Positions 20,234 through 38,770 of a stretch of 47,811 bases of DNA are shown one piece after another; the stretch's first letter is position 1; the number at the start of each line of letters is the position of its first letter. The notes below the pieces were generated by a model. It ran no database searches, was not told where the DNA came from, and worked only from the letters and a program-made list of their open reading frames with translations. The stretch spans positions 1 to 47,811 of the IMG/VR virus record IMGVR_UViG_3300035670_000345; one strand, 5' to 3'. The position numbers and the translations under genes are program-made. Origin of the DNA: a virus.

Positions 20234-20923
20234 TTATTTATTACTCAAAATTTTATCGTATAATTTGGTGTTTTGTTGCTGGTTTTTCTTAATTTCAGAA
20301 AAGTCTGTTGGCGCCTCAATGTTGAGTTTTTGAAGAGCCTTTCTTCTTCTGTTTAAAAATTGATCAAACTTTTCTGAGCCGTTAAACCATCTTAATGCTT
20401 TCCAAGAATTTTCCTTTCCGTCTTCATTAAATTGACTGAAAAATTCTGAGTATTCAACCTGAACTCCGTCAGCCATACAGCGTTTATATGGCGAGCAGCG
20501 TTCACATAAATCTTCGCATTTTTGAAGTTTGACGTTCCAAGGTTTTTGTCTGAATCCGTGACAGAAAATAGACCAACTGCCTGGAATACATTCTTTTAAT
20601 CTATGCACATCTTCTGGAGATCGTATGATAATATCTCCAGCCTTACGAACATAATCAATCCCATTATAGGTTTCTGTATAGCCACCCTTTAATATGACAG
20701 TGATATTGGTCCAAGGGTGAGTATGTTCGTAACCACCATCTGGATTTTCTTTAGATGGGAAATAGTGAATCCATATATTTGGAAACCTTCCTAATCCAAC
20801 CTTTTCAGCCTCATCTTTTTCATAATAAAACAAGTAATATCGATGCCCTATTTCATTGCCATAAAAGTCTACTAATACCTTTTTACGACCAATCTTTTCT
20901 AAAAAACGAAGAAGCCATTTCAT
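20234..20923 (-). CDS. Cupin-fold protein with downstream Cys cluster
   Basis: The product has 229 residues. The central part fits a cupin barrel: GGYEHTHPWTNITVILKGGY contains His67-x-His69 and is followed by Glu84; motif 2 is AGDIIIRSPEDVHRL with His107. These would form a metal site. Immediately after the barrel come Cys136, Cys140, Cys143 and Cys149 (CEDLCERCSPYKRC), which contains the CxxxCxxC spacing of radical-SAM 4Fe-4S sites. No SAM-enzyme barrel is present, so a structural zinc or an iron-sulfur site are both possible. The C-terminus is a charged helix. The ATG overlaps the preceding gene as ATGA. Substrate and role are unknown; it lies in the accessory cluster between structural genes, so it may be made late. 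Confidence 0.7.
   Translation of the reverse strand: MKWLLRFLEKIGRKKVLVDFYGNEIGHRYYLFYYEKDEAEKVGLGRFPNIWIHYFPSKENPDGGYEHTHPWTNITVILKGGYTETYNGIDYVRKAGDIIIRSPEDVHRLKECIPGSWSIFCHGFRQKPWNVKLQKCEDLCERCSPYKRCMADGVQVEYSEFFSQFNEDGKENSWKALRWFNGSEKFDQFLNRRRKALQKLNIEAPTDFSEIKKNQQQNTKLYDKILSNK
20235..20242 (-). promoter_or_regulatory. Late promoter (AATAAATA) overlapping the cupin stop codon
   Basis: The minus strand reads AGT-AAT-AAA-TAA-AGA-ATG, so the octamer AATAAATA covers the last codons and stop of the cupin gene. T4 spacing puts the transcript start at about 20229, on the ATG of the 49-aa micro-ORF at 20230. The 4-nt distance between octamer and ATG is the same as at gp4 (38321-38335). Confidence 0.45.
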
Positions 20924-21615: not shown

Positions 21616-21737
21616 TATAATTCTTCAGCTTCCGTTTCAGGTTCAGTATTTTCGCGTAACACGTATTCTTTAATGTGTTCAGGAATTACGCTTTCGTCTT
21701 GATTTTCCCATGTAAGAATTTCTTTATCGTCAGGCAT
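21615..21737 (-). CDS. Acidic micro-ORF (40 aa)
   Basis: ATG at 21737 and TAA at 21615-21617 give MPDDKEILTWENQDES and an acidic tail ending ETEAEEL. Its start overlaps the end of the preceding gene by 8 nt (ATGCCTGA), and its stop overlaps the next start as TAATG. This fits the coupled packing of the cluster and fills what would otherwise be a 114-nt gap. About one residue in three is Glu or Asp. No family is recognised. Confidence 0.6.
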   Translation of the reverse strand: MPDDKEILTWENQDESVIPEHIKEYVLRENTEPETEAEEL

Positions 21738-22230
21738 AGAATTTAATTCCAGCAGCATCTTCACCAGCACCATTCAAAGCAGTGCCGATGTAGTTCCAAG
21801 TGAAGTAATAGTTTTGGCGATTTGTTATGCCAGCATTTACATTACCATATGCCATTCTTTCAACATCAAATCCTTGCCAACCACCGACTGGATTAAATGC
21901 ACCTAGCGCATTGGTGATTTGAGTTTGCGCTGAACCGAATACAAACAATTCAGAAAATATACCGTTACAATAAACACCACCTGAGATGGTATAATCGTTT
22001 AGCGCACCAAAAACGTTATAAGAATATCCGTACTGAGTGCCGAATTTACTGGTGTATGTTCGATCGCTTACAGTGACGCCCCATGCTTTTCGAAGCTGAG
22101 CCATGTCTCTTTGGCCACCATAGCCTAAGCGATCGCTGGGATCAGTTATTGGGCAATATGTGCCAGCTCCTCTTTGCATAATCTCAACATTACAGTCAGA
22201 AAGAGCAATTTGACCTGTCGGAGTTGCCAT
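21730..22230 (-). CDS. Small virion-type protein (166 aa)
   Basis: The N-terminus MATPTGQIALSDCNVEI resembles the start of many phage neck and tail proteins that begin MATPxGxIxxxDxNVE. The rest is Gly/Asn/Tyr-rich (FGTQYGYSYNVFGALNDY), typical of beta-structured virion proteins, and ends GAGEDAAGIKFYA. It starts with a TGATG overlap on the preceding gene. Function is unknown; a tail or fibre accessory protein is inferred from composition and from neighbours between two fibre loci. Confidence 0.65.
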   Translation of the reverse strand: MATPTGQIALSDCNVEIMQRGAGTYCPITDPSDRLGYGGQRDMAQLRKAWGVTVSDRTYTSKFGTQYGYSYNVFGALNDYTISGGVYCNGIFSELFVFGSAQTQITNALGAFNPVGGWQGFDVERMAYGNVNAGITNRQNYYFTWNYIGTALNGAGEDAAGIKFYA

Positions 22231-22556
22231 CAGTTGCTATTCCATGGCATCTCAAATGTTCTGGCGTCTGGCGCGTTAGCGATCCGATTTAGTTCTTCGT
22301 CTAATCCTTTTTTAATTGCCCAGTGATTTAGTTGATTGTCAATCCAGGATTTTACTTGTTCTTCTGTGAGACTCTCAAATTGAGTAAAGTTGTCAGAATC
22401 AGGGGCAGATACTGGAACGAAACCGTAATGTGTGGCTTCGTTTACACCGTTATTCGCAGTGTATCTCCATGTTACTGTTTTGATGACCTTTGAAAGTGAG
22501 TTTTCCTCGGTTTTAAAATCTAACCGATGAATACCCCAAGTGTATGTCGTAGCCAT
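22230..22556 (-). CDS. YTW-type small phage protein, copy 1 (108 aa)
   Basis: The start is set at the ATG 22556, with AGAGG 6 nt upstream; a GTG at 22562 would add two residues. The sequence pattern is TYTWGI near the N-terminus, VIKTVTWRYTA, then FTQFESLTEEQVKSWIDNQL. The same order (YTW, W-x-VTG, NLTEEVVLGWI) occurs in the protein at 22831-23271, so the two are distant paralogues. The pattern resembles a small conserved phage family (I believe DUF7936; this needs checking). Its ribosome site lies in the right arm of a hairpin, and a late-promoter octamer lies over the left arm, suggesting stage-specific translation. Function is unknown. Confidence 0.75.
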   Translation of the reverse strand: MATTYTWGIHRLDFKTEENSLSKVIKTVTWRYTANNGVNEATHYGFVPVSAPDSDNFTQFESLTEEQVKSWIDNQLNHWAIKKGLDEELNRIANAPDARTFEMPWNSN

Positions 22557-22560
22557 GAAC

Positions 22561-22585
22561 ACCTCTGAACAGAACGCTCAGAGGT
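22561..22585 (-). promoter_or_regulatory. Hairpin sequestering the ribosome site of the 108-aa gene
   Basis: On the minus strand ACCTCTGA (22585-22578), a 9-nt loop and TCAGAGGT (22568-22561) form an 8-bp perfect stem. The right arm contains the AGAGG ribosome site, and the ATG follows 4 nt after the stem. There is no T-tract, so it is not a typical terminator. Read-through RNA should fold and block initiation. RNA starting at the overlapping late promoter would lack nearly all of the left arm. Confidence 0.65.
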
Positions 22586-22592
22586 ATTTATT
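22585..22592 (-). promoter_or_regulatory. Late promoter (AATAAATA) over the hairpin left arm
   Basis: AATAAATA on the minus strand fits NATAAATA and overlaps the tandem TAA-TAA stops of the 70-aa gene. With T4 spacing the RNA would start at about 22579, two nucleotides before the end of the left stem arm. Late RNA would therefore expose the AGAGG site. This is the architecture known for T4 lysozyme gene e and soc. Confidence 0.5.
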
Positions 22593-22803
22593 ATTGCTTG
22601 CTGTAAAAAGCTGGCGGTGGCGATTGGAAACCGTCAGGCTGTTGTTGCTGCTGCTGAGTTTGAGACTGAGCCTGCATCACGACTTTACGAAGAACATCAT
22701 CCGAAATTCTATGTGGTAGTTCTCTAAGAGCACTAATAACGATATTCGTGTCGTTTAGATTCAATTCAAGATTAATCTTCATTTCAACTTGGTTGTTATC
22801 CAT
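22591..22803 (-). CDS. Small Gln-rich conserved phage protein (70 aa)
   Basis: The product starts MDNNQVEMKINLELNLND and continues VISALRELPHRISDDVLRKVVMQ, a short beta-then-helix unit of a kind common in T4-like marine phages. The tail is glutamine-rich (QSQTQQQQQQPDGF) then proline-rich. The ATG is preceded by GAGGA at a good distance. It ends with two TAA stops in a row, the second inside a late-promoter octamer. Function is unknown. Confidence 0.7.
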   Translation of the reverse strand: MDNNQVEMKINLELNLNDTNIVISALRELPHRISDDVLRKVVMQAQSQTQQQQQQPDGFQSPPPAFYSKQ

Positions 22804-22830: not shown

Positions 22831-23271
22831 TCAAAGATCTTCGAGCGATACTTCTTGAGCTGGAGCAGCTGCTGCAGCTGCAGCGCCTGTTGCGGCAGCA
22901 ATAGCCATAGCATTAGCAGAAACTGGAGTGGTTGGATCCCATGGCAAGTAGTCTGCGTCGAGAACAGGATTCTTCTTCTCATTGATTTGCTTCATGATAA
23001 CTTCATGAACATGAGAAGCATATCCACCAACAACAATTCCTTTAATCCAACCAAGAACAACTTCTTCAGTTAGATTGTTCCAGTCAATAAAATTGTCTGG
23101 ATCAACTTCAGATGCTTTAAATGGTGTAGCGCCATGAAACGTGCCGCTATTTCCATCTTCATCAGTTCCAGTAACATCCCAGCGAGTGCCAACAACAACG
23201 TCCGTTAAATTGGCAGAAGGAACGTTCGTCTTCTTCAATCCTGTAATTTTCCAAGTATATGTAAGAGCCAT
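22831..23271 (-). CDS. YTW-type small phage protein, copy 2 (146 aa)
   Basis: The N-terminal 100 residues have the same layout as the 108-aa protein at 22230-22556: ALTYTWKI, TRWDVTGTDEDG, then WNNLTEEVVLGWI. It differs by a C-terminal extension rich in alanine (MAIAAATGAAAAAAAP) and ending VSLEDL, which looks like a flexible tail. The ATG follows AGAGGA by 8 nt, and the late-promoter-like ACTAAATA at 23301-23308 gives a leader of about 24 nt. It was probably duplicated with its neighbour. Function is unknown; a small virion or assembly protein is inferred. Confidence 0.75.
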   Translation of the reverse strand: MALTYTWKITGLKKTNVPSANLTDVVVGTRWDVTGTDEDGNSGTFHGATPFKASEVDPDNFIDWNNLTEEVVLGWIKGIVVGGYASHVHEVIMKQINEKKNPVLDADYLPWDPTTPVSANAMAIAAATGAAAAAAAPAQEVSLEDL

Positions 23272-38320: not shown

Positions 38321-38328
38321 TATAAATA
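38321..38328 (+). promoter_or_regulatory. Late promoter (TATAAATA), 4 nt before gp4 ATG
   Basis: A perfect T4 late octamer lies in the 25-bp gap between divergent gp48 and gp4. T4 spacing puts the transcript start on the gp4 ATG (38333-38335). No Shine-Dalgarno sequence is visible before gp4, so a leaderless late mRNA is possible. Confidence 0.55.
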
Positions 38329-38332
38329 ATTG

Positions 38333-38770
38333 ATGGCTTATTCTGGAAAATTTAGTCCGAAAAATCCCAATAAATATTTAGGTGACCCAACAAACATTTG
38401 GTATCGCAGTTTGTGGGAGCGCCGAGTAATGGTGCACCTAGACGATAATTCAAGTGTGGTTGAGTGGTCTAGCGAAGAAATCGTCATACCATATTTATCC
38501 CCAGTGGATAATCGTTGGCATCGATATTTTCCAGATTTCTTCGTCAGGATTAGAAATAAAATGGGGATGTTAGAGGGAATTATACTAGAAGTGAAGCCAA
38601 AAAGCCAAGCAGTTCCACCTAAAATCGGTAAAAAGATCACCAAGCGAGTTATAAATGAAGTTATGACTTATGGTGTAAATGAAGCAAAGTGGATAGCTGC
38701 CAAGGAATATTGTAAGACCAGAAATTGGACCTTTAAAGTAATCACAGAACAAGAACTATTTGGAAAGTAA
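38333..38770 (+). CDS. gp4: Head completion protein gp4
   Basis: The product has 145 residues against 150 in T4. The ATG at 38333 gives MAYSGKFSPKNPNKYLGDP and the family block WYRSLWERRVMVHLDDN, then EEIVIPYLSPVDNRWHRYFPDF and IILEVKPKSQ. The E...D...ExK spacing resembles TnsA-like endonuclease folds, which suits its known link to DNA ends at packaging. gp4 (also called gp50/65 in older maps) completes the filled head before tail joining. It is the first gene of a plus-strand run. A TTG at 38330 would add one residue. A late octamer lies 4 nt upstream. Confidence 0.9.
   Translation: MAYSGKFSPKNPNKYLGDPTNIWYRSLWERRVMVHLDDNSSVVEWSSEEIVIPYLSPVDNRWHRYFPDFFVRIRNKMGMLEGIILEVKPKSQAVPPKIGKKITKRVINEVMTYGVNEAKWIAAKEYCKTRNWTFKVITEQELFGK
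38375..38382 (-). promoter_or_regulatory. Late promoter candidate (CCTAAATA) for the gp48 operon
   Basis: On the minus strand CCTAAATA lies in the 5' part of gp4 and would start RNA near 38369, leaving a leader of about 62 nt before the gp48 ATG. The same site reads AATAAATA on the plus strand (38369-38376), so it is partly palindromic. A second minus-strand match (GATAAATA at 38492-38499) is further away. Confidence 0.4.

Follow-up and report, generated by a model that had tools for sequence, protein, structure and literature searches.

Gene content of the locus

The stretch of DNA analysed here, called the window throughout, is the whole 47,811-nt IMG/VR record IMGVR_UViG_3300035670_000345, a 47.8-kb fragment. 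A DNA similarity search of the window against named phages gave no match. Judged by its tail and baseplate protein matches, its source is a T4-like marine myovirus: the tail-tube-cap protein matches T4-like phages, with Kyanoviridae phage HTVC008M as the best match, and other ORFs resemble T4-type tail and baseplate proteins. On the minus strand, a 3288-aa collagen-like fibre gene is followed by genes for proteins of 133, 146, 70, 108, 166, 52, 231 and 229 aa and then by more tail genes (Table 1). The minus-strand genes upstream of the 108-aa gene, which encode the baseplate hub, the 3288-aa fibre and the 133-aa and 146-aa proteins, probably are late virion genes. The 229-aa gene (20234-20923, minus strand) is an unusual enzyme-like neighbour amid the tail genes, as its product gives a cysteine dioxygenase/cupin-like profile match (phrog_4786, E 2.9e-15).

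The 108-aa protein belongs to DUF7936 (PF25590; 69.4 bits against a curated cut-off of 27), relatives of which occur in cyanophages, pelagiphages and others, and its orthologs are 66% identical in relative L075 (contig 3300017788_000613) and 60% identical in relative L097 (3300042691_018062). Its AlphaFold model (pLDDT 88) comprises three strands and two helices, and a fold search of this model against the PDB returned nothing at E < 0.1. We therefore propose no function, and the initial annotation's description of the protein as uncharacterised holds, with a domain family now assigned and no solved relative found by fold. The conserved 70-aa gene of the window stands between two DUF7936 genes (146 aa and 108 aa) that share about 35% identity, possibly reflecting a duplication around this small gene. 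In another phage, L077, the 108-aa ortholog is located upstream of the 146-aa homolog instead.

Table 1. Features of the 108-aa gene leader and its neighbouring genes in the window.
Feature	Position	Strand	Basis or remark
166-aa gene, overlaps 108-aa gene stop; next gene in the unit of the 108-aa gene	21730-22230	-	Homologs at same place in L075 and L097
108-aa DUF7936 protein gene, putatively under switch control (PF25590, phrog_7802)	22230-22556	-	Profile match and orthologs
Right arm GTTCAGAGGTGTT, holds ribosome site	22558-22570	-	RNAfold
Shine-Dalgarno GAGGTG, 3 nt before ATG	22560-22565	-	Sequence
Loop GTTCT	22571-22575	-	RNAfold; ATTCT in L075 and L097
Left (anti-Shine-Dalgarno) arm AATACCTCTGAGC	22576-22588	-	RNAfold; first nine bases upstream of predicted RNA start
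Predicted late RNA 5' end, inside left arm	22579	-	T4 spacing, 6 nt past octamer
T4-type late promoter octamer AATAAATA (consensus NATAAATA)	22585-22592	-	Read directly; conserved in L075 and L097
70-aa gene, 3' end in octamer; candidate for translational coupling	22591-22803	-	Homologs directly after 146-aa gene in many phages
146-aa DUF7936 paralog, start without hairpin	22831-23271	-	Profile match

Octamer and hairpin ahead of the 108-aa gene

The octamer lies on the minus strand exactly where the initial annotation had placed it, and its first two bases belong to the TAA stop codon (22593-22591) of the 70-aa gene. The same annotation described an 8-bp stem, ACCTCTGA/TCAGAGGT, whose right arm holds the ribosome site of the 108-aa gene. 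This stem is correct as the core of the hairpin but too short, since RNAfold gives 13 pairs (22588-22576 with 22570-22558, two of them G-U) between the strands AAUACCUCUGAGC and GUUCAGAGGUGUU, joined by the 5-nt loop GUUCU. The longer fold does bury the Shine-Dalgarno (SD) sequence, which lies within TCAGAGGTG ahead of the ATG at 22556. In the window, 1 nt separates the 3' base of the stem from the ATG, and the distance is similarly short in the relatives; at the other end of the stem, its base is 2 nt away from the octamer-overlapping 70-aa stop codon. No U-tract follows the stem in the window, where C-ATG comes after the stem and TGTTC after GAGG; a terminator scan of the window does not report this hairpin, and an Rfam search returned nothing.

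The start region folds with an MFE of -28 over 91 nt (z = -3.1; 3 of 200 shuffles equally good), and the window contains a single copy of the stem pattern, which none of 100 shuffles produced. Ranked by stability, this fold comes first among those of the 37 ORF starts in the window. Across 618 starts, from related loci and the window together, a few are as stable, and among the top-ranked stable starts listed none other than the orthologs has an octamer leading into the stem. When the relatives were searched for permutations of the octamer followed by a stem and an ATG, ATAAATA yielded the 108-aa locus alone, with overlapping permutations re-reporting that same site.

Both L075 and L097 keep the octamer, the 13-bp stem, the stop codon, the spacing, the gene and the gene order, in the arrangement ...AAGCAGTAATAAATATCCCTGAGCATTCTGTTCGGGGATATT(T)CATG. 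Their arms differ from those of the window by six substitutions, and 13 of 13 pairs are preserved: two pairs change on both sides from the window to the relatives (22584-22562, C-G to U-A; 22582-22564, U-A to C-G) and two on a single side (22586-22560, U-G to U-A; 22580-22566, U-A to U-G). Simulated sets of six random transitions kept all pairs in 7.5% of cases and gave at least two double changes in 1.9%. Because both relatives share the changed bases, there is one contrast only, that of the window with the L075/L097 pair, and covariation by itself is suggestive. Loss of both octamer and stem in related phages, which the initial annotation had held to count against its reading, was not seen in the two relatives found, and compensatory stem changes, for which it had suggested comparing related phages, are present in this one contrast. 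A tblastn search for relatives with the 166-aa protein returned none.

More distantly related phages have a different gene after the 70-aa gene, without octamer or stem; L077 instead has a canonical intrinsic terminator, AAAACCCCATAGAAATATGGGGTTTTTT, at the junction after the 70-aa homolog (~1180-1230), in place of the octamer and hairpin. More distant DUF7936 genes in many cases have the octamer upstream, with the stem absent, so the hairpin is tied to the 108-aa gene junction in the window's lineage rather than to the protein family. L009 has an octamer and a stem within the end of a recombinase-like gene, which we set aside as a possible coincidence.

By itself the octamer is at chance level in the window (93 one-mismatch matches versus 98 expected from shuffled sequence), and its evidential value therefore lies in its combination with the hairpin. 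The consensus NATAAATA has been published as the motif of late promoters in T4-like cyanophages (PMC2984593). In related loci, 24% of ATAAATA occurrences are placed 8-60 nt upstream of an ORF start, which ranks this motif first among 21 permutations (median about 6%); most others fall below 11%, and TAAATAA, which overlaps ATAAATA, reaches 20%. A published attempt at predicting late promoters in pelagimyophages failed (PMC7029224), for which reason we only infer that ATAAATA behaves like a late promoter in the window's lineage. A gp55-type late sigma factor homolog is present in the relative L042/G001 (E 1.8e-59; gp6 68% identical), and further gp55 homologs occur in the DUF7936 phages G003 and G005 and in HTVC008M.

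Two other octamers in the window deserve mention. An exact TATAAATA at 38321-38333 on the plus strand lies merely 4 nt ahead of the ATG of a gp4-like gene, where T4 spacing would set the RNA start within the start codon, making this octamer either not the promoter of the gp4-like gene or the source of an unusual message. At 20234-20242 on the minus strand, a second AATAAATA, this one lacking a hairpin, overlaps the 229-aa stop codon and precedes a small Cys-rich ORF (MCCC...).

Similar elements in uncultured viruses

We then scanned IMG/VR with the class pattern ATAAATACCTC-N6-24-GAGGTRTT-N0-8-ATG, and found at least 120 matching stretches (L112-L231) versus 4 for a single control pattern with the arm changed to CTCC, counts in which the matches include related contigs and ORFs were called mechanically. 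The matches listed comprise 72 distinct elements in 28 protein groups. Among them, the stem extends inward beyond the forced bases by a mean of 3.0 pairs, compared to 0.64 (maximum 1.08) in shuffles, and for 59 of 72 elements the closest ORF upstream shares their strand. Genes behind the listed elements encode T4-type lysozyme, RuvC-like and RusA-like resolvases, a head-tail adaptor, the terminase large subunit and SegE/I-TevI-like endonucleases.

A U-tract follows the stem in 46 of the 72 listed elements, as compared to 14 of 295 ordinary SD spacers, and the unforced bases of the spacer after the stem are 79% T among the matches listed. At least five T in the last 8 nt before the ATG were found in 49 of these 72 elements versus 3 of 48 starts with an octamer and no hairpin. 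To judge from these sequences, most class members among the matches listed resemble intrinsic terminators as well, unlike the window element and the lysozyme leaders of the T4-e-like type (GGAGGTATTATG). In the members with a U-tract, terminator, promoter and ribosome site appear to be one element. Palindromic versions in L218, L225 and G013:C1:21558-21592 carry the ATAAATA octamer at both hairpin bases, on opposite strands, with divergent genes in L218 and L225. In T4, a looser form of the class pattern matched gene e and no other gene, and it matched nothing in S-PM2, Syn9, P-SSM2, KVP40, RB49 or HTVC008M. A literature search did not find late promoters overlapping terminators described for T4-like phages, an absence that is weak evidence.

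A candidate translation switch, its alternatives and known counterparts

Spacing as in T4 sets the predicted late RNA start such that, as the initial annotation calculated, two bases of the 8-bp left arm remain (four of the 13-bp arm). The computed cost of opening the SD is 14.4 kcal/mol in read-through RNA versus 4.2 kcal/mol in RNA starting at 22579, dropping sharply between RNA starts at 22585 and 22580, and the SD is unpaired with a probability of at most 0.02 in read-through RNA. In a second set-up, the corresponding costs are 14.7 versus 3.5 kcal/mol for the window, 13.9 versus 3.4 kcal/mol for T4 e and 13.9 versus 2.6 kcal/mol for L097.

We consider the 108-aa gene leader to be, with good probability, a translation switch of the T4 lysozyme e type that acts by promoter of origin. 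Read-through RNA from the upstream tail genes would carry the whole 13-bp hairpin, preventing ribosome loading on the 108-aa gene. A late RNA polymerase of the gp55 type would start at about 22579 and produce RNA without the outer nine left-arm bases, in which the GAGGUG site would be free and the 108-aa gene and the genes behind it translated. This reading draws on the sequence, the predicted fold, compensatory conservation, the energy difference, motif enrichment and a late sigma factor found in a relative, from which we infer where the RNA starts, that read-through RNA exists and how translation is affected. Counted against the switch are the lack of a gp55 match in the 47.8-kb window fragment, the right arm GGGGAT of L075 and L097, which is a poorer ribosome site, the smaller gap in opening cost for L075 (8.2 versus 3.4 kcal/mol in the second set-up), and weak pairing of the SD with the coding region that persists in late RNA.

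The e-type mechanism of the initial annotation is supported, with a computed SD opening cost of about 14.5 kcal/mol in read-through RNA and about 4 kcal/mol in late RNA, like that of T4 e, and a motif that is late-promoter-like in the lineage. Its suggestion that early expression is deliberately suppressed is unsupported: as the upstream genes are tail genes, the read-through RNA is probably late, and a long late RNA is more likely than an early one to be what the hairpin would silence. The element it called stage-specific is credible as a switch but better termed promoter-of-origin-specific.

The main and serious rival is translational coupling to the 70-aa gene, which we nevertheless consider unlikely as the explanation and which could coexist with the e-type switch. 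A ribosome terminating at 22593-22591 would cover most of the left arm, open the stem and allow a start at 22556, with read-through RNA being translated in proportion to the 70-aa gene. The placement of the 70-aa stop, overlapping the octamer so near the stem base, fits this reading, and so does the 70-aa gene itself, a real and conserved gene whose place in the order never varies; among other phages, the gene that comes next often begins within a few nucleotides of the 70-aa stop, the usual coupled layout. However, coupling leaves the conserved late-promoter octamer unexplained, and the gene upstream of T4 e also ends near the stem, yet roughly 100-fold repression is reported there (PMC3014915).

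Alternatively, the hairpin could be a terminator or attenuator of the upstream unit that ends read-through RNA before the ATG, with late RNA escaping for want of the left arm. Such a function is favoured by L077, which has an intrinsic terminator at this junction, and by the U-tract of most wider-class members listed. Since the window lacks a U-tract, with its hairpin passed over by the terminator scan, and L075 and L097 have merely TATTTC/TATTC, we regard termination at this locus as quite unlikely. Protection of the 3' end of a processed upstream mRNA, or an RNase processing site, would make SD sequestration incidental and would account for a stable stem directly past a stop codon; with a right arm that is itself the ribosome site, so close to the ATG, and an octamer whose position would deprive late RNA of the arm, like that of T4 e, this is improbable. 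A chance meeting of a conserved hairpin with an AT-rich octamer lacking promoter activity is very improbable, because even though octamer-like strings occur at chance level in the window and TAATAAATR also arises in relatives from a stop followed by a start, the octamer is kept together with the stem in both relatives, where no other occurrence of it has such a stem, and both the positional enrichment of the motif in the lineage and the class-wide excess in IMG/VR speak otherwise.

Conservation at the sequence level supports a T4 lysozyme-type switch outside coliphages, on a gene of a structural module. Such a switch on the 108-aa gene would uncouple its output from long tail-operon read-through rather than delay its expression to late infection. 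The design is already known; ahead of the 108-aa gene it is conserved in two relatives, and many uncultured viruses have similar elements. The order of octamer, hairpin and ATG is a simple search pattern for such switches in uncultured phages and has given many more candidates, most of them terminator-like, and the class-level excess with this terminator-like majority is the more unexpected part. We tentatively propose, as a distinct possibility, that the window element is a member of a large class, for the most part unrecognised, found in environmental T4-like phages: in these elements the SD-pairing arm would be encoded by the 4-5 bases that separate the late octamer from the RNA start. Hairpins with a U-tract could then be self-exempting, stopping transcription and translation of upstream RNA and sparing RNA from their own promoter, and the class would recur on the kinds of function seen in T4 (lysozyme, Holliday-junction resolvase, homing endonuclease), also when the proteins come from other families (RuvC-like, RusA-like).

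Among known systems, hairpins over the ribosome site that are relieved by a late promoter inside or adjoining them, a combination also predicted for the window, are described for T4 soc, gene 49, I-TevI, I-TevII, I-TevIII and segB and for Aeh1 mobE, genes for which early or middle transcripts are reported (PMC3014915, PMC2988022). The I-TevII leader (CCTCGTATAAATATGAATACGAGGTGAAACGATG) carries its octamer in the upper left arm and loop, whereas that of the window sits at the stem base. The late-promoter octamer reads TATAAATA in T4 and NATAAATA in cyanophages, compared to AATAAATA just upstream of the gene here. The L077 junction likewise has a hairpin just after the 70-aa gene but differs in having no octamer, a long U-tract and a different next gene. 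Elements of the IMG/VR class share the order of octamer, stem, SD and ATG with the window, which is an exact match to the pattern, and most differ from it by a terminator-like U-tract after the stem. The closest layout is that of the T4 e leader (McPheeters et al. 1986), which combines a late promoter with an SD-sequestering hairpin and for which it is established that folding represses the long RNA and that late RNA escapes (reviewed in PMC3014915). This leader, TATAAATACCTTCTATAAATACTTAGGAGGTATTATG, has the same layout as the window element, with an octamer (NATAAATACCT in T4 e) where the left arm has its outer base, an RNA start inside that arm, predicted in the case of the window, a right arm with AGGT and its spacer, and the same computed opening energies; it differs in having two octamers and in lying on transcripts made early, whereas the window element has one octamer, follows tail genes and precedes a DUF7936 gene.
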